Shown: piece by piece, positions 1 to 49,381 of the stretch
Position numbering within the stretch: position 1 is the stretch's first letter
Layout of the letters: each line of letters opens with the position of its first letter
From: Sphingobium sp.
GTDB taxonomy: Bacteria > Pseudomonadota > Alphaproteobacteria > Sphingomonadales > Sphingomonadaceae
NCBI GenBank assembly: GCA_020446425.1
Contig: JAGRES010000013.1
Location: forward strand, 1 to 64,000
DNA: 64,000 bases
Direction of reading: 5' to 3'
The notes under the pieces: model-generated
The model's database searches: none
Seen by the model: only the letters and a program-made list of their open reading frames with translations
What the model was told of the DNA's origin: nothing
Translations under genes and position numbers: made by a program

Positions 1-971
<971 letters not shown>

Positions 972-985
972 TCCACTGAATAACG

Positions 986-1017
986 CCCCTCCCCCTCGGT
1001 CTGCCGGGCGGGAGGGG
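986..1017 (+). other. Hairpin between atpD and atpC
   Basis: CCCCTCCC at 986-993 can pair perfectly with GGGAGGGG at 1010-1017 across a 16-nt loop. No U-tract follows, so it is not a classical intrinsic terminator. It lies wholly in the 63-bp atpD-atpC gap. It may shield the atpD mRNA end or tune epsilon expression relative to beta; that role is inferred. Confidence 0.5.
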
Positions 1018-1034
1018 TTACAGGACACCAAGAC

Positions 1035-1289
1035 ATGGCGCTGCATTTCGAACTCGTAACCCCTGAAAAGCTGGTCCGCTCGGCGGAAGTGTATCAGGTT
1101 GTCGTTCCCGGCACCGAAGGCGATTTCGGCGTGCTGGAAGGCCATGCGCCGTTCATGTCGACCATCCGCGACGGTGAAATCCTGCTTTTCGAAAGCGCGT
1201 CCTCCACACCGGAGACCATTCCGGTCGTCGGTGGCTTCGCCGAAGTCAATGAGAAGGGCCTGACGGTACTCGCTGAAAAGGCGGGTTGA
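1035..1289 (+). CDS. atpC: F1Fo ATP synthase subunit epsilon (short form)
   Basis: Central-stalk subunit that couples gamma rotation to catalysis. The 84 residues cover only the N-terminal beta-sandwich domain ([14 protein letters not shown], then [19 protein letters not shown]). The C-terminal helical hairpin that makes many bacterial epsilon subunits about 130-140 residues long, and which acts as an ATPase brake, is absent. There is no frameshift or cut at the end, and similarly short forms are known in sphingomonads, so this is probably the native length. It closes the atp operon; the next gene converges on it after only 14 bp. Confidence 0.93.
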
Positions 1290-1303
1290 GGTTAGATCTC
1301 AGC

Positions 1304-2257
1304 TCAGTTAGCAACGGACTTTGTATGTCCGATAGCACATTGATTTTCTTGGGCCTTGATATTGCTGTAGCGCAATAGGCCTAGTCCAACACCGAAAGAT
1401 ACCAGGTCAGCGATTGTAGCGGCGATACGCAGTAACAATGCCACTATTGTTCCGGCTTCTAAGCCTATAATGGGCTCCAGGCCCTGACTTAAAATCACCT
1501 CTCTAATGCCCAACCCAGCCGGTGCGCCCGGCGTTACAAACCCTGCCAGCCAGGCCACACAGAAAATCGAAACCACCTGAAGGCACACCGAAGGCGTGGC
1601 GGTAAATGCAGGGTCAAGCAATAGCAAACCCGCTCCGCTCAACAGAGTAGATAGTAGAGACAAAGCTATTGGAATGGCCCATTTCTGTATTTTGAGGCCT
1701 TGGCCGCCCAACCGCTCTTTAAGAACATTCAACGCTTTATGCTTTAGTACAGGTCGAGATGAATTCAGAAGGCAAGCTGCAAATATCATCAATATAAGGC
1801 CGCTTAGCCATATAAGAACATCCGAATGAGTCGCTATTGTTGGCATACTCAATAAAAACATCACTGCTATGCCAAACAGGGCTTCTAACGCCATAGAGGC
1901 AAAAACCGGAACAATGGGCACATTATACTGCTTCGCGAGCGCGACCCGCCCGATATGCTGCGCTATGTTGCCCGGAATATATTTAGCGAACTGAGCCGTA
2001 AAAAATATTCCAGCCGCTAACGAGAAACGAACGGACGCACCACATCTCAATAACATCACTTGCCATGCCCAAGCAGAGGCCAAACCAGCCATTATAAAAG
2101 GCACAACAGCAAATAATGGTCTGGCAAGCTTCGCATTTGACAGGTCCACCAGCTTGTCATCCAGTTGAATAGCCCGCTGGCCAAAATAAAAAAGACATAC
2201 ACAAGACAGTAGAGCTCCAGCTACGTACATCCATTTCCGGGATATTAAGACCGTCAT
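1304..2257 (-). CDS. Flippase-like integral membrane protein (LPG synthase TM / UPF0104 family)
   Basis: Polytopic membrane protein of about 317 residues with many hydrophobic segments; the features FTAQFAKYIPGNIAQHIGRV and TPGAPAGLGIREVIL are typical of the PF03706-type 'lysylphosphatidylglycerol synthase transmembrane' family. The catalytic LPG synthase domain is absent. Relatives beside glycosyltransferases are thought to handle lipid-linked substrates. I start at ATG 2257 (MTVLISRKW), 16 bp after the upstream glycosyltransferase stops; a GTG at 2320 would overlap that gene. Base composition is markedly AT-richer than the atp genes, suggesting transfer. Exact function is unknown. Confidence 0.75.
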   Translation of the reverse strand: MTVLISRKWMYVAGALLSCVCLFYFGQRAIQLDDKLVDLSNAKLARPLFAVVPFIMAGLASAWAWQVMLLRCGASVRFSLAAGIFFTAQFAKYIPGNIAQHIGRVALAKQYNVPIVPVFASMALEALFGIAVMFLLSMPTIATHSDVLIWLSGLILMIFAACLLNSSRPVLKHKALNVLKERLGGQGLKIQKWAIPIALSLLSTLLSGAGLLLLDPAFTATPSVCLQVVSIFCVAWLAGFVTPGAPAGLGIREVILSQGLEPIIGLEAGTIVALLLRIAATIADLVSFGVGLGLLRYSNIKAQENQCAIGHTKSVAN

Positions 2258-2273
2258 GATGCGTGCATAACGA

Positions 2274-3464
2274 TCAAGCAAAATCACTGGCTCGCCTTTC
2301 GCTAACGTCGCCGACCACACGCAATTGTTTCAACCGCCTCAAAAGCTTAGACACACCCTTATCCGGTGACAGTGCTTCTCTCGTCACGGATGAAAATGGC
2401 ATGGAAGCAGGGTTATATTGACTACAGGCACTTATCATCGCGTTCGCCAAAGCATCAGCATCAGCTGGAGCCACCAGCAATATATTATCCGGACATTGCC
2501 GCGCCAACCCGGTCACTGCGGGGCTATCCCGTGTGATAATTGTGCCGCCTGCAGCTAAAATCTGGAACATCTTGTTAGGAATGACCCGGCTAGCCTTGTC
2601 GCTATCTCCAAATATACCCAAGCATACTGCAGCATTGCGGATCAGGCCGGGAATCTCCCTATAATCGACCCATGGCAGCCACGTCATATTGCGAGGTGCG
2701 TTCCTGGAGACAAACTCCCGTACGAGATCTTCCTCTTGTCCACTGCCGACGATCAGCCAGTGAATATTCTGCGACGCGGTCAACTCAACCGCGTGTAATA
2801 TGGTTTCAATGCCATGCAGGGGAATGAATTGGCCATAGAACAACACATATGGCGAAGGCACATCGGCCGGCGCTTCATTCGGCGCAATCTGATCGCGGAC
2901 CTCCCAGAACAAATCTTCAGCCCCAACCAGGACAGTGACAAATTTTTCTGGCGCAATATCAAAACTTGCGGCGAAATAGCGGCCATGCTCATCGGTATCA
3001 ACGATGACAATGTCCGCCATTCTCAGTGCGAAACGTTCGAAATGCCATAACAAGCGTGCGCGCCAGTCACCGCACCGAAGAAGCTTCCTGTCGTTTATGA
3101 TCGTATCGTAGAGGGAAATGAAAGCATCGAAGATGATTTTCTGCCCACGCAGACGAGTCAGCGGCCAGATGATGAAGATATCGAAAATCGCGGGATAAGG
3201 CAGCAGAATGACGTCAACCCGCGACGTTCCGAAGAACCGAAACAGCGCATAAGGATACCCTATGATAAGGCGGATCAATGCACTGGCGATGCGCATCAAT
3301 CCAGCTACTGATTTATCTTCGATACCCCGCCAGACATCAATATTGATCTCTGACGCCAACATGTTCCTTTTCCTCAGCGCATCAAGCAGCAAGCGTACAC
3401 GGGGCTTGCCCATGTCGTAACTGCCCCACACAGTAAATTTCGAAAAGGAGAGCGGAACAGCCAT
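2274..3464 (-). CDS. Glycosyltransferase, GT4-like (GT-B fold)
   Basis: 396 residues with a GT-B layout: an N-terminal acceptor half containing a hydrophobic stretch (about residues 60-110), and a C-terminal donor half with PYVLFYGQFIPLHGIETIL, WLIVGSGQEE, and the segment VIPNKMFQILAAGGTIITRDSPAV, which resembles the nucleotide-sugar-binding E/K-x7-E region of GT4 enzymes. It lies 3 bp downstream of the GT-C gene and 16 bp upstream of the flippase-like gene, so the block is probably one transcript. The sugar and acceptor cannot be told from sequence; a role in surface glycan or glycolipid synthesis is inferred from neighbours. Confidence 0.8.
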   Translation of the reverse strand: MAVPLSFSKFTVWGSYDMGKPRVRLLLDALRKRNMLASEINIDVWRGIEDKSVAGLMRIASALIRLIIGYPYALFRFFGTSRVDVILLPYPAIFDIFIIWPLTRLRGQKIIFDAFISLYDTIINDRKLLRCGDWRARLLWHFERFALRMADIVIVDTDEHGRYFAASFDIAPEKFVTVLVGAEDLFWEVRDQIAPNEAPADVPSPYVLFYGQFIPLHGIETILHAVELTASQNIHWLIVGSGQEEDLVREFVSRNAPRNMTWLPWVDYREIPGLIRNAAVCLGIFGDSDKASRVIPNKMFQILAAGGTIITRDSPAVTGLARQCPDNILLVAPADADALANAMISACSQYNPASMPFSSVTREALSPDKGVSKLLRRLKQLRVVGDVSERRASDFA

Positions 3465-3467
3465 CGG

Positions 3468-5144
3468 TCAAAAAAACGTCCAATAGGGCCGCTCAGGCGG
3501 GTCTCGGTCCGGCTTGTACAGGTGGTCGCCCCAGACCAGCCGCGCGCCTCCCTCACTAGCCATCATCTCATACCGTCCCCTGTCGAGCTGTATAGCATCG
3601 CCTTTATGCAGCACCCTGCCGCTGACACGTATCTCGCCATATTCGAGCGTGTAGGGACCGGGCACATATATCTCCACTCGCCGTGCCTCACTGGGTTGGA
3701 GAATTTCGCCAGGAACCCAGAATGGCCCCCAGTGCTGAACATAGGTGTCGTGCAACGCGGCAACATCCTCCGGCAACAGGTCCCTCTGCTCGCCCGTGCT
3801 GTTCAGAACCGGGCTGAACATATCGTCCATTTCAACGACCAGCGGCACGGCCTTTTCCTGCATCACTTCGCGCATGGGTGGCACATTACCGGCACGATAT
3901 AGCTCCATCCCCCACAGGGTCATGAAGGCATTAGCCTTGTCCTGCCAAGGCAGAAAGCCTGCAAAGTCGAAATAGGAAATGGGCTGCGGGAACATGGCCT
4001 TGGCAACTGTCTGAAGCTTGCGCTGCCGGTCGATGACGCTTTTGTCCTCGTGCATCCAGGTGCTCAGCGCCATCATCAGGAAAGCGACAGCAGGCAAGCC
4101 CGCACCATAGCGACGGCCTAGCATCGACAGCGGAACGGCACACGCCACGGCGACAGGCGGCAGAAGAAACGCGTAAAAATAGGGAAGAGCGTTGAAATAA
4201 AAGCCCAACACACTAATCGGCAGAAAGAGGCCAATTAGCGCAATCTTTTTATGCCTCCCCAACCCGCTCATATAAATGGCGACAGGAAAACACAGGATCG
4301 TCAGCACCAATATTTCCGACATGCTGACGAATTTCAGCATCAGCGCCCAATAAGGGGGAATGCCGAGGAAAAACATCTTCTGCGCCGAATTCTGCAAAAC
4401 GCTTTTCGCGGATCCATCCACCGTCATACCTGCGGAATGGAGCATATAGAGCACTGCGAAGAACAGAGCTGCGGCCGTCAATGCCACAGCCAACCGCAGC
4501 GCGAGAGAAAAGCCGTACCCCTCTCGATGCCAGCGCCACCATGCCAGTCCGGCAAACGCTGGCGCCCACAAGATGATTTTGATGCTAAACATGGCTGCCG
4601 TGCCAATGAACGCTCCAAATAGCAGGAGCCACCCCCCCCTGAAACGCGTGCATCCCAATATACACAGGGCGCTCATCGTCAATGCTGTTATGATCGGGTC
4701 CGTGCGGAAAGAAAACCCATGCTGCATCACGAAGCCGGACGATAGATAGGCCAATACGCATACGGCCCCGGTTTTCCAGTCGGTGAAACGCGCCGCGAGC
4801 AATATGATACCGCTTGCAGTGACCATCTCGCACGCAAACATGAACATGCGCGCGATGACGATATGATCCACGCCTGTACCGGCAAGTCCAGGCAGCCACT
4901 GAAATATCCTTACATGCAACGTCTGAAGCGGAAGCTCCAATACGCCTTGGGTGAACAGCTCGACCTGGCGATAAAAGTGAAACTCATCCCAATTGATGGC
5001 CCGTCCGAATACCATCGTCCCCTGCATGATGAGGACCAGAGCGATGCAAATAACAGGTAGTAGCGGCGAATCCGCATAGGCGCGCACCCTGTCCATCAGG
5101 GTCAGGCCCGGCGTATCGGCCATCGCCGCCTGCTGAGTGGTCAC
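3468..5144 (-). CDS. GT-C membrane glycosyltransferase (ArnT/PMT-like)
   Basis: 558-residue polytopic protein. After the first membrane helix comes INWDEFHFYR (D53, E54), matching the acidic catalytic pair in the first periplasmic loop of GT-C enzymes such as ArnT and protein mannosyltransferases. A run of hydrophobic helices is followed by a soluble C-terminal part of about 200 residues. Such enzymes take a sugar from a polyprenyl-phosphate carrier on the periplasmic side. The GTG start at 5144 overlaps the GT2 stop as GTGA, so the two are translationally coupled; GT2 would supply the polyprenyl-phosphate sugar. Acceptor unknown. Confidence 0.75.
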   Translation of the reverse strand: MTTQQAAMADTPGLTLMDRVRAYADSPLLPVICIALVLIMQGTMVFGRAINWDEFHFYRQVELFTQGVLELPLQTLHVRIFQWLPGLAGTGVDHIVIARMFMFACEMVTASGIILLAARFTDWKTGAVCVLAYLSSGFVMQHGFSFRTDPIITALTMSALCILGCTRFRGGWLLLFGAFIGTAAMFSIKIILWAPAFAGLAWWRWHREGYGFSLALRLAVALTAAALFFAVLYMLHSAGMTVDGSAKSVLQNSAQKMFFLGIPPYWALMLKFVSMSEILVLTILCFPVAIYMSGLGRHKKIALIGLFLPISVLGFYFNALPYFYAFLLPPVAVACAVPLSMLGRRYGAGLPAVAFLMMALSTWMHEDKSVIDRQRKLQTVAKAMFPQPISYFDFAGFLPWQDKANAFMTLWGMELYRAGNVPPMREVMQEKAVPLVVEMDDMFSPVLNSTGEQRDLLPEDVAALHDTYVQHWGPFWVPGEILQPSEARRVEIYVPGPYTLEYGEIRVSGRVLHKGDAIQLDRGRYEMMASEGGARLVWGDHLYKPDRDPPERPYWTFF

Positions 5145-44061: not shown

Positions 44062-44870
44062 GCGTCCGCTTCCTCCCGCTGTTCCATCTCAGGCTCCGCT
44101 GCGGCAGGCCGCAGAAAAATCGGCGCAAAAATCTCTTCCTGCTTGATATCCACCCGGCCCTGACGCGCCAGCTCCAATATGGCGACAAAGCTGGACGCAA
44201 GCGCCGATCTGCCGAGCGCGCCGGACAGTCCGTCGGGCAAGAACGCCTCCAGCCGGGTCCAGTCGAGCCGCGCACCGACCAGCGCACCGACCCGCTCCAG
44301 CGCCTCGTCCAGCGTCATCACCGGGCGGCGTGACACGATATGCATCGCTGGCTGGGTCCGCGCCTTCACCTGACCATAAGCGGTCATCAGGTCATAAAGG
44401 CTGGCCTGCCAGATCGCGACTTTCTCGACCTTCAGCCCTTCCGGCGCGCCGCGCGCGAATACATCGCGCCCCAGCCTGTCCCGCGCCATCAGCCGCGCAC
44501 CGGCATCGCGCATTGCCGACAGGCGCTGCAAGCGCAATTGCAAACGCAGCGCCAGCTCTTCAGGCGATGGGTCTTCCTGCTGCGCCTTGGGCAACAACAG
44601 CGCCGATTTGAGATAGGCCAGCCACGCCGCCATCACCAGATAATCGGCCGCCAGCTCCAGCTTCATCGCGCGCGCGCTTGCGATGAATTCGAGATATTGC
44701 TCGACCAGCGCGAGGATCGAGATTTCCCGCAGATCGACCTTCTGCGAACGCGCCAGCGTCAGCAGCAGATCGAGCGGCCCTTCCCAGCTGTCGAAACTGA
44801 CAGTCAGCACATCCTCGCCGGCGCGCGGCGCCTCAAACAGGTCAATGGCGTCGTCCATCGTCGCCATCAC
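44058..44870 (-). CDS. scpA: Segregation and condensation protein A
   Basis: 270-residue kleisin of SMC condensin. SWEGPLDLLLTLARSQKVDLREISILALVEQYLEFI is the N-terminal helical domain that contacts the SMC neck; the C-terminal winged helix includes LEAFLPDGLSGALGRSALASSFVAILELARQGRVDIKQEE. ATG overlaps the nagZ stop (ATGA), ATG 44861 is an alternative. Confidence 0.95.
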   Translation of the reverse strand: MMATMDDAIDLFEAPRAGEDVLTVSFDSWEGPLDLLLTLARSQKVDLREISILALVEQYLEFIASARAMKLELAADYLVMAAWLAYLKSALLLPKAQQEDPSPEELALRLQLRLQRLSAMRDAGARLMARDRLGRDVFARGAPEGLKVEKVAIWQASLYDLMTAYGQVKARTQPAMHIVSRRPVMTLDEALERVGALVGARLDWTRLEAFLPDGLSGALGRSALASSFVAILELARQGRVDIKQEEIFAPIFLRPAAAEPEMEQREEADA

Positions 44871-45877
44871 GCCATCACCTCCAGCAGCGCATCCCGACGC
44901 GCCAGCAGACTTTCCAGTGGTTCATCGGACATCGCCCCGGCGGCCCATGCCATCGCGCGGTCCAGCCGCACGCGCGATGCGGTGCTGATATCGGGCAGGC
45001 GCTGCGCTATCCCCACCATGTCCTCCATTTTCGCCCAGCAGTTGAGCGCCAGATCGCATCCGGCCTCAACCACCCCCGCGGCCAAAGCGGGAATATCCCC
45101 CTTCAATGCCTTCATGTCGAGGTCATCGGACATCAAAAGGCCGTCATAACCGATGCGATCGCGAATTATCTTGTGGATAACCTCCGGCGACAGGCTCGCG
45201 GGGCGCTCGGCATCCCATGCGGTATAGACGATATGCGCGGTCATGCCCATCGGAGCCTGATTGAGGGTGATGAAGGGTTCCAGGTCTGTCGCCAGCGCTG
45301 CTTCATCGGCGATGACGGTGGGCAGCTCATGATGGCTGTCCACCAGCGCACGGCCATGGCCCGGTATATGCTTGACGATGCCGACCACGCCGCCCGCCTT
45401 CAGGCCATCGAGCACCGCCCGGCCCAGCGCCGCTACGCGCATCGGGTCCGTGCCCAGCGTGCGGTCACCCATGATATCGCTCGCGCCGTCTTGCCGCACA
45501 TCGAGCAGCGGCAGCGCATCGACGGTGATGCCGCATTCGCGCAAGGTCGCGGCAATCGCCTGCGCATTGGCGCGCGCCGCCTCAATCGCTGTTGATGGCG
45601 CGACCTCATACAGGGCATCGAAGCGCTGCATCGGCGGAAATTCCGGCCAGACCGGCGGCTTCATGCGCGCCACGCGCCCGCCTTCCTGGTCGATCATGAT
45701 CAGCAGGTCATCGCGACCGTGCAGGGCGCGCAGATCGTCCGTCAGCGCGCGTAGCTGGTCCCTGTCGCGGCAATTGCGCTGAAACAATATATATCCCGCC
45801 GGATCGCTTTCGCGGAAAAAGGCGCGCTCGTCCCCGCTAAGCTGTTCCCCGGCCAGACCGAAAATCACTGGCTTCAT
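44867..45877 (-). CDS. nagZ: Beta-N-acetylhexosaminidase NagZ
   Basis: 336-residue GH3 enzyme that removes GlcNAc from muropeptides during peptidoglycan recycling. Signatures: KHIPGHGRALVDSHHELP, carrying the catalytic His/Asp loop, and GLLMSDDLDMKAL with the nucleophile aspartate; LIMIDQEGGRVARMKPP is also typical. Cytoplasmic. In related genomes it usually follows the SPOR gene directly; here 160 bp and a two-gene cassette separate them, so it probably needs its own promoter. Confidence 0.95.
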   Translation of the reverse strand: MKPVIFGLAGEQLSGDERAFFRESDPAGYILFQRNCRDRDQLRALTDDLRALHGRDDLLIMIDQEGGRVARMKPPVWPEFPPMQRFDALYEVAPSTAIEAARANAQAIAATLRECGITVDALPLLDVRQDGASDIMGDRTLGTDPMRVAALGRAVLDGLKAGGVVGIVKHIPGHGRALVDSHHELPTVIADEAALATDLEPFITLNQAPMGMTAHIVYTAWDAERPASLSPEVIHKIIRDRIGYDGLLMSDDLDMKALKGDIPALAAGVVEAGCDLALNCWAKMEDMVGIAQRLPDISTASRVRLDRAMAWAAGAMSDEPLESLLARRDALLEVMA

Positions 45878-45985
45878 GAGCAGAGATTAGCGGCCATCGC
45901 CCTCGTCGCAAAGCGCGAATGCGTTTGTTGGCGAAAATGGCGAGCTCTACCAAGCGTTCTATTCATTAGATAATGGCCACTAACA

Positions 45986-45997
45986 ATAGCCAGCCAT
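45986..45997 (+). repeat. Left copy of a 12-bp inverted repeat flanking the accessory cassette
   Basis: ATAGCCAGCCAT, 40 bp after the stop of the VWA-like gene. Its exact complement is at 48493-48504, 24 bp upstream of the first cassette gene. Neighbouring bases do not extend the match. Confidence 0.55.
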
Positions 45998-46037
45998 TTA
46001 ACCCAAACATCATTGAAGCACTAGGAATTTGGCCTAA

Positions 46038-46892
46038 CTACATCTTATCGTCATGCCAAACGGAGCGATCGGATGGTTCACCAAGGGCTAGGGCGTGACC
46101 AAGGGCAACATCGGCTCCTTGGTCGCGAAAGTAGGACTCCCAAAATTCGCGATGTCTCTCGCCTTGAAACCTTATACTGGGGCGGCGGACATATTGAATG
46201 CGAATTTCCGCGCCCTTCATGTCCGAACCATATTGTTCAATCAACGCCTTAGGTATTTGATACCGGCGCCTGTCCGAACGTCCATATTGCGAAAAAACTC
46301 GGCTATATTGAGCCATATCGGAGAGAATAACTACCCGGCGCTTCTTCACATCGGGCCCAAAGTCGGTGCGTCTAAACAGTGTACCAACCGATTCAGCAAT
46401 CGGAGATGCAGGCTGCACCGGTGTCTTTTCAAGATCTGCAAGGAATTTATCAAGGCGCTTACCAACCATAGCGCGAAACTGCTTATCAAGGGCGACTGGG
46501 TTGTTAGTAATGCCATTCCCTTCCGATCCAACCTTGACTCTACACACGGTGATTGTGTCAACATCGGTATCGACCGAAGCTGAAATCGTTCGGATGGTGA
46601 GTACGCCGTTGATTGGAAGCCAAAAATATTCGTTTCGAATCAAATCTCGAGCAAAATCAAGTTCTGATTTTGGCAGAGCGTCGGTCTGATCAACAAGAAC
46701 GAAAGTACGCGCCTGCGGTGCTGTGTGGCGACCGATCGGACAGCCATTCTCTTTGTTACGTGCTGGTTCACGGGTCGCATAGACTGTGTATGCACCAAGC
46801 ACCGCAGCAAGCAGTGCAAGAGCCATCAGGATAATGCCTGTTCGATCGTCCCGCTTACGTCGATCATATGCACGCCCATAATGCTGGGCCAT
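46038..46892 (-). CDS. Membrane-anchored VWA-like protein of unknown function
   Basis: 284 residues. A basic N-terminus, then one membrane helix (IILMALALLAAVLGAYTVY, 20-38), leaving about 240 residues outside. The soluble part looks like a von Willebrand A-type fold: a hydrophobic strand ending in a D-x-T motif (TFVLVDQTDALP, 63-74), a Ser-containing loop PASPIAESVG (161-170), and VVILSDMAQYS (187-197) in the place of the third metal-site motif. Fold and metal binding are my inference. It begins inside the stop of the coiled-coil gene (TGATG), so the two are coupled. GC content is visibly lower than in nagZ or argS. Confidence 0.6.
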   Translation of the reverse strand: MAQHYGRAYDRRKRDDRTGIILMALALLAAVLGAYTVYATREPARNKENGCPIGRHTAPQARTFVLVDQTDALPKSELDFARDLIRNEYFWLPINGVLTIRTISASVDTDVDTITVCRVKVGSEGNGITNNPVALDKQFRAMVGKRLDKFLADLEKTPVQPASPIAESVGTLFRRTDFGPDVKKRRVVILSDMAQYSRVFSQYGRSDRRRYQIPKALIEQYGSDMKGAEIRIQYVRRPSIRFQGERHREFWESYFRDQGADVALGHALALGEPSDRSVWHDDKM

Positions 46893-48469
46893 CAGCTATT
46901 CTCTATCTCCGCATCACGCATTGCGGCTTTTGCCTCTTTTGTGGCTTCGGCTTTCACCGAACTTACGCGTTTATCGAGTGCGGCTAAAGCTACGTTAATT
47001 TCGGCATTGAGCTCCCTAATCGTGTCGGCGTTAGTTTCCACCAACTCATCGGCCGCGATTTTCAATGCGGAAATCTCCTTTAACGAGGCGTCGGTTTCTG
47101 CAAGGTAGCGATCAACAGTTGTGCTTTTCTCACCCGCTAGACCATAATGACGATTTCGATAATCGGCGCTATTGGGAAATGTCTCAAAATAGGCTGGCGG
47201 TTCGCTGTCGTCGCCACGCACCTCGACATTGATGTCGCGATAAATCTTTAATAGCTGCGTACCGCCAGCAACCCATTCGTCTTCGCTATCACGAACTTCC
47301 TTTTCGCGTTGGCGTGCGAGACCGATAAGATTTGCGATAGTAAGCGCCTGACCTTTTGATCTCAGTTCCTCGCGCTCGGCCTCGGCAACGACCTCCTTTG
47401 CCTTGTCTCGCGCCGCGGCGCGCAAATCGACAAGAGCGGTTTCGAAATCCTGTCGCGCAGTGCGGGCACGCTTGTCGAATTTTTTATAGTCTGGATAACG
47501 GTCGGCGAAATCGTCCCAACCTTCTTTGGCGGCGATAAAATGGATGAACAGACCAAGGCATAGGAGCGCCCAGGCAAGAATGGAGTCGAAGTTATACAGA
47601 CCGTTTTCCTTAATATGGCTCACGGTCTGAGCGGTGAGCCCCGCAAAGTTAAAGTCATAATTGGGATCAGCCGCAGCCTTTTCCGCAACATCGCGAAACT
47701 GCGCAATTGCAAGGTTCCAAACAATGGCCCCGCCATGGCAGACAATCATAACAAAACCGCCAAGAACTCTCCGGCGCCATTCAATATGGCCTAGATTTCG
47801 CCAACCATACATTCCGGCTGATACACCCAGCGCAATATTGAGCATGCTAATCGTCAGCGCAATCAAAGCCCCCGCAGCTGGTCCGCCACTCAGCACATCG
47901 CCAAGTAGAAAGCCATTTGCCATAGATTCAAGCACTAACATTGCGGAGATGACACCCAAGACAAGGATAATAGAATCCTTGTAATGGGCCTGCCGCTCTA
48001 GTTTATTCTTATTGCGGAAGTATCGAAGGTCCTTATGCAATGTCAGGTCGCTCTGCCGTAATTGCTGAATATAGCCGGATCGTTCAGCGAAGACTTCGTT
48101 CATAGCGATCCCGATACGCGCCTTATAATTCTTCTCATCGATCAGGGATGGTAGCGATTGCCGCCCTCCAGCTAAGGCCGTACCAAGCTGCTCCGCCAGA
48201 AACTGGTTGAGCATAAGGATTCCACTGAATATGCGGTTGCAAATTTCGAGCTGCGGCTCGTTCAACGACTGATCACTACTCGCGGGCTGGTCCATACGGC
48301 CATGCGTACGGGCCTGCTCATCCAGATCGAGCTCTTCGCGTATCTTTTCAATCTCGATTCGGCGTTCTTTGCCTAGATCAGGAATCCAGAGTGTATGGTC
48401 CTTATTCCAGCGCTGTCCAGAAACATCCATTTCGCCGATAGGGCTAGGTCCCCTCACCGCCACATCCAC
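46892..48469 (-). CDS. Polytopic membrane protein with coiled-coil tail, unknown function
   Basis: 525 residues. Residues 1-160 are soluble and charged; four hydrophobic helices lie at about 166-186, 198-220, 234-256 and 295-313; residues 325-525 are a long charged region with two coiled-coil stretches (about 335-395 and 455-520). No ATPase, nuclease or transporter motif is seen. The start is probably GTG 48469, preceded by a G-rich run; ATG 48430 is possible. First gene of a two-gene operon with the VWA-like gene. Low GC and the break in a conserved operon suggest horizontal arrival. Confidence 0.6.
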   Translation of the reverse strand: MDVAVRGPSPIGEMDVSGQRWNKDHTLWIPDLGKERRIEIEKIREELDLDEQARTHGRMDQPASSDQSLNEPQLEICNRIFSGILMLNQFLAEQLGTALAGGRQSLPSLIDEKNYKARIGIAMNEVFAERSGYIQQLRQSDLTLHKDLRYFRNKNKLERQAHYKDSIILVLGVISAMLVLESMANGFLLGDVLSGGPAAGALIALTISMLNIALGVSAGMYGWRNLGHIEWRRRVLGGFVMIVCHGGAIVWNLAIAQFRDVAEKAAADPNYDFNFAGLTAQTVSHIKENGLYNFDSILAWALLCLGLFIHFIAAKEGWDDFADRYPDYKKFDKRARTARQDFETALVDLRAAARDKAKEVVAEAEREELRSKGQALTIANLIGLARQREKEVRDSEDEWVAGGTQLLKIYRDINVEVRGDDSEPPAYFETFPNSADYRNRHYGLAGEKSTTVDRYLAETDASLKEISALKIAADELVETNADTIRELNAEINVALAALDKRVSSVKAEATKEAKAAMRDAEIENS

Positions 48470-48492
48470 CCCCCATGGTCAATTGGAGCAGT

Positions 48493-48504
48493 ATGGCTGG
48501 CTAT
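48493..48504 (-). repeat. Right copy of the 12-bp inverted repeat
   Basis: ATGGCTGGCTAT on the plus strand, the exact complement of 45986-45997. It lies between the cassette's first start codon and the SPOR gene. Confidence 0.55.
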
Positions 48505-48649: not shown

Positions 48650-49381
48650 TCAATTCACGACGATGCAGTTTTCGCCCGCGACTTTCAGCTTGCCGCACAG
48701 GGTTGAGGCGTCCTTGCCCGCGCTTGCGCGCAGCCGATAGAATTTGCTGCCGCCCACGGTGACGGGCTGCACGCTGTGCGTCAGGCCAGCCAGATAATCG
48801 AAGCGCTTCGAGAAACGCTTCCACGCGTCCTGCGCGATGGCCTCGCTGCCATAGGCGCCGAGCTGGATCATCGGGCCGGTCAGCTTCGGCGCAGCTTCCG
48901 GAACCGGCGCGGGCGTAGCCGCAGGAGATGTGTTATCCGCCACCTTGGTCTTTACTTCCGAAGATGCCGCGGGCGCATTCGCCTTGTCGGCGGCATCCTT
49001 GCTGGCGCTGCCCGATATCACTGGCTTTTCCGGCAGACGGGACGGATCGATCTTGCCGTTGCGGTCTATGCCTTCACTTGCCGCATAGACGGCATCGCCC
49101 TCGCCATCGAACTTCTTGGCGTCGGCGTCTTCCGCAGGCACTTTATAGTCGCCTTCCGGCGCGGCGATCAGGGTGGCGTCTTCAGCAGGCGTCAGATAAT
49201 TGCGCACCATATAAACGGCGCCGACGATCAATCCCAGCAGCGCAAGCCCGCCGACAATGAAGCCCAGCAGACGGCCGAGAGATACGGAATCGTCATAATC
49301 ATCGTCGCCGGCAGGCTCCAGCCAGGGCAGGCGGTCTTCGTCGTCCAGATCGAGACTGCCGCTGCTGTAGTCGCTCATCAC
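48650..49381 (-). CDS. SPOR domain-containing envelope protein
   Basis: 243 residues. Acidic cytoplasmic start, one membrane helix (LLGFIVGGLALLGLIVGAVYMV, about 34-55), a low-complexity periplasmic linker, and a C-terminal SPOR domain (GPMIQLGAYGSEAIAQDAWKRF to GKLKVAGENCIVVN). SPOR domains recognise glycan strands lacking stem peptides at the septum. ATG overlaps the argS stop. In this lineage the gene usually leads into nagZ; that link is broken here by the accessory cassette. Confidence 0.88.
   Translation of the reverse strand: MMSDYSSGSLDLDDEDRLPWLEPAGDDDYDDSVSLGRLLGFIVGGLALLGLIVGAVYMVRNYLTPAEDATLIAAPEGDYKVPAEDADAKKFDGEGDAVYAASEGIDRNGKIDPSRLPEKPVISGSASKDAADKANAPAASSEVKTKVADNTSPAATPAPVPEAAPKLTGPMIQLGAYGSEAIAQDAWKRFSKRFDYLAGLTHSVQPVTVGGSKFYRLRASAGKDASTLCGKLKVAGENCIVVN

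Follow-up and report, generated by a model that had tools for sequence, protein, structure and literature searches.

A transferred gene pair for a coiled-coil membrane protein and a VWA protein in Sphingobium sp., with four-gene relatives that encode a putative Zorya-like motor

What are two genes of low guanine-plus-cytosine (GC) content doing between a SPOR-domain gene and nagZ in the genome of a Sphingobium sp.? The stretch that raises this question, positions 1 to 64,000 of contig JAGRES010000013.1 (assembly GCA_020446425.1) and hereafter the window, carries there a pair that we call A and B. An original prediction, made from the letters of the DNA, had taken the pair for a mobile or transferred module made of a polytopic protein with a long coiled-coil tail and a membrane-anchored VWA-like partner, perhaps of an envelope stress or conflict system, and had found that no known system fitted. 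We find that the pair is a transferred insert, as seen from empty sites in relatives, flanking inverted repeats and base composition, and that it also occurs at the head of four-gene operons with a putative Zorya-like motor pair and, often, a nuclease. Our leading interpretation, held tentatively, is that A and B form a mobile and self-contained unit of two proteins, seated in the inner membrane and the periplasm, that would recognise the entry of DNA, by phage injection or conjugation, at the envelope.

A transferred insert between a SPOR-domain gene and nagZ

The arrangement that had been described was confirmed in full: the two genes lie at the predicted positions between the SPOR-domain gene and nagZ, overlap by TGATG and are low in GC. 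Across the pair (46038-48469) GC was 51.2%, against a mean of 60.2% (standard deviation 2.9) over 616 sliding segments of 2.4 kb, nine of which had a value equal to or below that of A-B, with starts at 1001-1301 and 45801-46201. GC at third codon positions was 0.53 in A and 0.45 in B, compared with 0.74 in the SPOR-domain gene, 0.76 in nagZ, 0.73 in argS and 0.78 in scpA.

Perfect 12-nucleotide (nt) inverted repeats bracket the pair, and their outer ends coincide exactly with the end points, 45986 and 48504, at which the original prediction had placed its limits. A perfect inverted pair of at least 12 nt between the two intergenic stretches arose in 5 of 3000 dinucleotide shuffles, and the two arms are the only copies of the repeat in the window when one mismatch is allowed. 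No transposase lies between the arms, and no target-site duplication was seen by eye beside them. Nothing comparable was found beside the 11 other loci that carry A-B without further operon genes, where the longest perfect inverted pair within 200 nt was 7-10 nt.

Comparison with relatives found through nagZ revealed that the gap between the SPOR-domain gene and nagZ is empty (55-178 nt) in 12 of 15 genomes of the same genus. The remaining three hold other content (one 529-nt gap with another open reading frame (ORF) and two other inserts). By our own reading of the sequence, this content is a short endonuclease-like ORF in L064; L062 has a transposase-like piece and another gene, and L063 has genes for a TetR-type regulator and a Rieske-type oxygenase. 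Since three genomes of one genus hold different inserts there, the gap receives inserts repeatedly and seems to be a site of recurrent integration. Next to nagZ, the window and the empty sites have about 45 nt in common. The sequence outside the arms totals 253 nt, compared with 55-178 nt in the empty sites, so the insert may extend beyond the inverted-repeat arms. Thus, none of the relatives examined carries the pair here, an ancestral position is not borne out, and the empty sites, inverted repeats and GC uphold the prediction of a mobile or transferred module.

The window contains no tRNA, and scans for promoters and terminators were uninformative (5 and 5 found, compared with 2.7 and 3.4 in shuffles). 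A second stretch of low GC (~51%) occurs at 800-5144, beside an ATP-synthase-beta-like ORF; on its minus strand are genes for a polytopic membrane protein and glycosyltransferase-like proteins (all three labels by eye).

Two membrane proteins and their four-gene relatives

An AlphaFold2 model of A was all-helical (mean predicted local distance difference test score (pLDDT) 81; predicted template-modelling score 0.52) and bears out the polytopic protein with a long coiled-coil tail: N-terminal helices are followed by four membrane helices (167-190, 197-226, 231-266 and 297-321; hydrophobicity by eye) and then by a long C-terminal coiled coil. Glu181, inside the first membrane helix, is glutamate in 19 of 19 aligned A proteins, five of them from loci with A-B only, and N185 of the same helix is kept in the same 19. 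No family of Pfam, NCBIfam, PHROG or PADLOC was matched by A or B with a meaningful E-value. The weak family matches of the two proteins (DUF4231 0.063, CARF 0.038, ESAT-6 0.099, VpaChn25 0.13, PHROG 0.3) were taken as chance or coiled coil, and the best match of an A profile to PDB sequences (signal recognition particle receptor beta, 0.0013 over 82 residues) was taken as chance.

Protein B has one membrane helix (17-39), which contains no Asp, and a VWA domain (about 57-284; model pLDDT 83). The model and a Foldseek match to the VWA fold of BatB (E 8e-5) confirmed a VWA/integrin-I type fold, and with it the predicted membrane-anchored VWA-like protein. This domain is probably periplasmic. 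Residues resembling a metal ion-dependent adhesion site (MIDAS) are present in three loops. In the first, D68 is kept in 23 of 23 aligned B proteins, position 70 is T or S in all 23 and D71 is kept in 22; in the second, position 163 is S in 22 and T in one; in the third, S191 and D192 are kept in all 23. The classical DxSxS motif is not retained at its last position, so metal binding by B is predicted. Two cysteines, C51 and C117, are present in all 23 B proteins of the alignment and could form a disulfide in the periplasm.

Table 1. Features of the locus, in window coordinates
Feature	Position	Strand	Size, residues or basis
Gene A	46892..48469	-	525 residues; ORF listing
Gene B	46038..46892	-	284 residues; ORF listing
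Probable inserted unit	45986..48504		bounded by the inverted repeats
12-nt inverted repeat, nagZ-side arm	45986..45997		~40 nt from the end of B
12-nt inverted repeat, SPOR-side arm	48493..48504		~23 nt from the start of A
A Glu181 codon, inside membrane helix 1	47927..47929	-	family alignment
B first MIDAS-like loop	46680..46691	-	D68-x-T70-D71; alignment
B second MIDAS-like loop (SPI)	46404..46406	-	Ser163; alignment
B third MIDAS-like loop	46317..46322	-	Ser191-Asp192; alignment
SPOR-domain gene, upstream flank	48650..49381	-	Pfam SPOR 3.8e-9
nagZ, downstream flank	44867..45877	-	Pfam Glyco_hydro_3 6.7e-45

A tblastn search of plasmids detected A in 10 records and B in 9, and in all eight plasmid loci that were fetched A-B is followed by two further genes, C and D. 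A scan with a C profile gave 228 relatives in species genomes, of which 80 were kept, and 3 in viral contigs. All 83 loci retrieved with no query other than the C profile hold A, B and D around C; in one of them B is split into two pieces. The kept genome loci are mostly from rhizobia and lie mostly on genome contigs of unstated replicon. Taken together, 103 loci comprised 97 with A-B-C-D, one with the split B, one that meets the contig end after C and four with A-B only; six further A-B-C-D loci were then added, one of them (L175) in the family of the window. The statement that no known system fits stands for the families scanned; the pair is not isolated, as its larger relatives are four-gene operons with a putative Zorya-like motor pair and often an SNase-type nuclease.

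By sequence comparison, D is recognisable as a MotB/ZorB-like protein with an OmpA domain, the latter detected in 22 of 33 D proteins at E 0.001. Against PADLOC ZorB, one D protein gave 2.9e-25 (L003) and three gave 3.5e-7, 9e-5 and 0.0026 (L002, L004 and L005). The best PDB match of a first D profile was MotS (7.8e-5), followed by a chain of 8vvi (ZorB; 9e-4); with a larger D profile the only match was PomB, at 0.0035, and 8vvi had dropped out. The link to ZorB is therefore carried by PADLOC and the first profile, and D may equally be of general MotB-like origin. C is probably MotA/ZorA-like. It has a coiled coil in addition to a membrane core, which weakly matched MotA_ExbB more often than any other family (9 of 35, best E 0.0027), and T84, S87 and T115 are invariant in 35 of 35 C proteins. 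Matches of C to PADLOC ZorA fall largely in the coiled coil, and its matches to solved structures were coiled-coil proteins (spikes, apolipoproteins) and were uninformative. ZorC, ZorD and ZorE were not among the best 25 of 89 families in the neighbours of A-B-C-D (78 of 218 listed neighbours scanned).

Several of these operons have unusual settings. Three IMG/VR contigs (L146, L147 and L148) carry A-B-C-D, as does a metagenome bin labelled Flavobacteriaceae (L143), through transfer or mis-binning. On a Sinorhizobium fredii plasmid (L007), a second hypothetical-OmpA gene pair lies upstream of a complete operon, and genes for a CHAT protein, a thermonuclease and a DUF4041 protein are close together nearby.

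A nuclease accompanies many of the four-gene operons. The 99 loci that bear C form 36 clusters at 75% identity, and a protein with an SNase motif was encoded within 6 kb at 34 loci (19 of 36 clusters) and within 500 nt at 22 loci (17 clusters); blastp clustering of the neighbours gave SNase at 35 loci in 20 clusters. In three further clusters D itself has a C-terminal SNase domain (L025:11350-12804, L034:2786-4723 and L031:6298-7932), one fusion having been found by Pfam among 33 D proteins scanned and two recognised by eye. By motif or fusion, a link to SNase is seen in 22 of the 36 clusters, leaving 14 without. Ten operon-bearing genomes (~53 Mb) contained 27 SNase matches. At this density, 0.5 per Mb, about 1% of such stretches would have one nearby by chance. 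An SNase lies beside or in the operon in six of the ten (G333, G391, G781, G1169, G982 and G1118), G982 and G1118 being near-duplicates and G1118 judged only from B and SNase at matching positions. Most of the linked SNases start with a stretch that resembles a signal peptide or anchor (by eye), and the nuclease is apparently exported.

The pair without C or D is found at 12 loci in 11 genomes, the window included, with two of the loci (L035 and L177) on short contigs. Its spread is patchy. A single A query matched 1 of 298 family genomes, that of the window; an A profile matched 14 of 385 class genomes. A B profile had matches in 9 of 296 genomes from the order and in 18 of 398 from the phylum; all of these counts include the window. 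The B profile, more sensitive than the single A query, matched none of 10 other listed genomes of the genus; its matches in other genomes of the family were G781 (A-B-C-D), G827 (A-B) and G092 (weak). Genome-wide searches found no C in any of the 11 A-B-only genomes and detected it in 3 of 3 controls, and the only D match in the window genome was at chance level (E 0.05). An SNase search gave no match in the window genome or G373 and one or two in each of the other nine, and no SNase motif was present in the fetched stretches of A-B-only loci.

The neighbours of A-B-only loci vary. A relaxase and a coupling protein adjoin A-B at L176, and at L178 and L180 the order is A-B, coupling protein, small genes and serine recombinase, with B and the coupling-protein gene joined by a TAATG overlap in L180 and a few nt apart in L178. 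In two loci from one genus (L033 and L185), A-B lies upstream of tat genes (by eye). At L032 (8960-11505), two genes convergent with A-B look caspase-like with a formylglycine-enzyme-type domain, and the locus encodes a second protein with such a domain (all by eye).

A and B were concatenated for a maximum-likelihood tree (42 rows, of which 11 are A-B-only; in effect unrooted, with long branches). It placed A-B-C-D in one clade (ultrafast bootstrap 96), with all 11 A-B-only rows outside it and the window with L033 and L185 on one side of a split with support 94. Because the A-B-only rows fall outside the clade, the window pair is probably not a broken or decayed four-gene operon. Both of its ORFs are open and keep the invariant residues of the family.

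Relatives of B are also encoded with an A-like membrane protein at seven loci of the same phylum outside the class, probably from Gammaproteobacteria (L189-L195). An OmpA lipoprotein precedes the A-like protein and B in all seven (L189 by Pfam, the other six by similarity to L189). L181, from the window's own family, encodes the same kind of A-like protein with B and without the lipoprotein. The A-like proteins of L189 and L192 matched no Pfam family, and hhalign aligned the outer protein weakly with A (41%, E 2.8e-4, 61 columns only), so that homology is only suggestive.

Possible roles of the pair

A model that accommodates the layout of the two proteins is that A-B acts as a metal-dependent sensor or gate of the envelope, probably with a role in the entry of DNA. 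Through its VWA domain, B would bind a periplasmic ligand in a metal-dependent manner, and a signal would pass through the helix of B to the polar membrane helices of A. A would then change conformation or conduct ions, signalling through its cytosolic coiled coils. With neither C nor an SNase match in the window genome, the output there has to be supplied by A itself or by a partner from the host; A may, for example, gate ions through E181.

The role in DNA entry is proposed because relatives join the core to a MotAB/ZorAB-like motor and an SNase. The context of the larger operons suggests handling or blocking of DNA at the cell envelope, and the richer surroundings of A-B share DNA that crosses the envelope, in the form of an apparently exported nuclease, a coupling protein and a relaxase. 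A fuller version of this proposal, possible and still doubtful, is that A-B is the ancestral core of undescribed envelope systems that recognise crossing DNA. One lineage would have recruited a Zorya-like motor and an exported, sometimes motor-fused SNase that cuts DNA in the periplasm, and the window pair would act without motor or nuclease, for instance through ion gating by the buried Glu of A. If this is true, coupling the motor to an exported nuclease would shift cutting to the periplasm, where DNA that enters is kept apart from that of the host; the decision when to act would then fall to A-B, and the stand-alone pair would be a two-gene system in which to study that function. Because the kept C-profile relatives are mostly rhizobia, laboratory hosts exist.

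Several results weigh against a role in DNA entry. The nuclease and motor of the relatives cannot be the output of the pair in the window genome. In eight of the 11 fetched A-B-only loci (L032, L033, L035, L036, L177, L179, L185 and L188) no DNA-transfer genes were recognised nearby. No mobile or defence context was recognised at L189-L195, which fit a housekeeping role as well. A Foldseek search with the model of A gave no PDB match at E up to 0.001. Strong PADLOC matches of four among ten neighbours traced singly (near L176, a type II methyltransferase and PDC-M26A; near L178, a type III methyltransferase; near L116, GajA), ~3-7 kb from these loci, speak for the role, but the other six neighbours had none. 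With no background control, and with 78 of 218 A-B-C-D neighbours scanned, the defence-gene neighbourhood of A-B is a hint only. The invariant acidic transmembrane residue of D is Glu28 (33 of 33), compared with the Asp (D21/D24) reported for ZorB in the excerpted text of PMC11890865. Overall, the original interpretation of the pair is partly supported. Clear homology to a characterised complex, which would have refuted it, did not emerge, and a part in stress or conflict is a possibility that we infer.

An alternative to which we give limited credence is that A-B is the cell's own module for envelope mechanics or force transduction, coupled to peptidoglycan or the outer membrane. The VWA domain of B would then be moved or tensioned by a 5:2 ion motor, namely C-D in the larger operons and TolQ, ExbB or MotA of the host in the window. 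The OmpA domain in two thirds of D proteins (22 of 33), the OmpA lipoprotein in all seven outer loci, five MotA/TolQ/ExbB matches in the window genome and the TolQ-like-driven VWA proteins proposed in the excerpted text of PMC12204202 are consistent with such a role, but the patchy spread of the A profile in the class and the B profile in the order, the occurrence on plasmids, the mobile-element genes among the neighbours and the link to SNase ill suit a housekeeping function.

It is unlikely, in our judgement, that A-B instead serves DNA transfer, by helping a mobilizable element to use a conjugation channel or by excluding competitors. The relaxase and coupling protein at L176, the coupling protein and serine recombinase at L178 and L180, the TAATG junction and the eight fetched plasmid loci, all A-B-C-D, argue for this function. 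However, DNA-transfer genes were seen at only 3 of the 11 fetched A-B-only loci and none was recognised near the window pair, and the 80 C-profile loci lie mostly on genome contigs whose replicon is not stated. Loss of the motor genes from an A-B-C-D operon would also leave such a pair, and C and D are indeed missing although the complete operon exists in the same family (L175), while the tree has long branches. Such a remnant is highly improbable given the single A-B-C-D clade with every A-B-only row outside it, the intact window genes, and the absence of C from 11 of 11 A-B-only genomes under a search that detected it in all controls.

Comparison with known systems

No description of the A-B pair or the four-gene operon was found among the listed matches from the open PMC literature; the excerpted text of PMC7159879 describes no such gene pair, and the excerpts bearing on RcgA/RcgR of rhizobial plasmids gave no link to A-B. 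Like BatA/BatB, the pair includes a VWA protein, B matching the fold of BatB, whereas A is not a Bat protein by Pfam scan.

As excerpted, PMC12204202 proposes transmembrane-anchored vWA proteins that are driven by TolQ-like motors. B resembles these in having a VWA domain on a membrane helix and being encoded with a membrane partner, and the larger operons supply a motor pair. In contrast, the helix of B does not contain the Asp found in one TPH-vWA family, A gave no MotA or TolQ match in the tests run, and the A-B-only genomes have no C. A may yet be related to MotA or TolQ, a kinship for which Pfam (no family), Foldseek (no match at E<=0.001) and hhalign with C (1.3%) gave no support.

SNIPE, in the excerpted text of PMC13190303, is a membrane-bound nuclease of the DUF4041 family that cuts phage DNA during injection. 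The likeness is the idea of attacking DNA while it crosses the envelope; a DUF4041 gene itself was found ~1.3 kb from one A-B-C-D locus (L007), the sole case among the neighbours tested.

Zorya is the nearest machine. Its nucleases act in the cytosol, coupled to an envelope motor. The excerpted account in PMC11890865 describes a ZorA5B2 motor, peptidoglycan binding by ZorB, a conserved Asp, and ZorE as the type II effector. The window pair fails the defining feature: the locus has no C, D, SNase or ZorA/ZorB motor genes, A and B gave no PADLOC Zor match, and in the genome C is absent and D is matched only at chance level. The A-B-C-D relatives come closer, with a MotB/ZorB-like D whose transmembrane helix and OmpA domain predict peptidoglycan binding, a probably MotA/ZorA-like C with a coiled-coil tail, and an SNase-type nuclease linked in 22 of 36 clusters. 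They differ from Zorya in that this nuclease looks exported, judging from N-termini inspected by eye and from the D fusions, and in that they add A and B.

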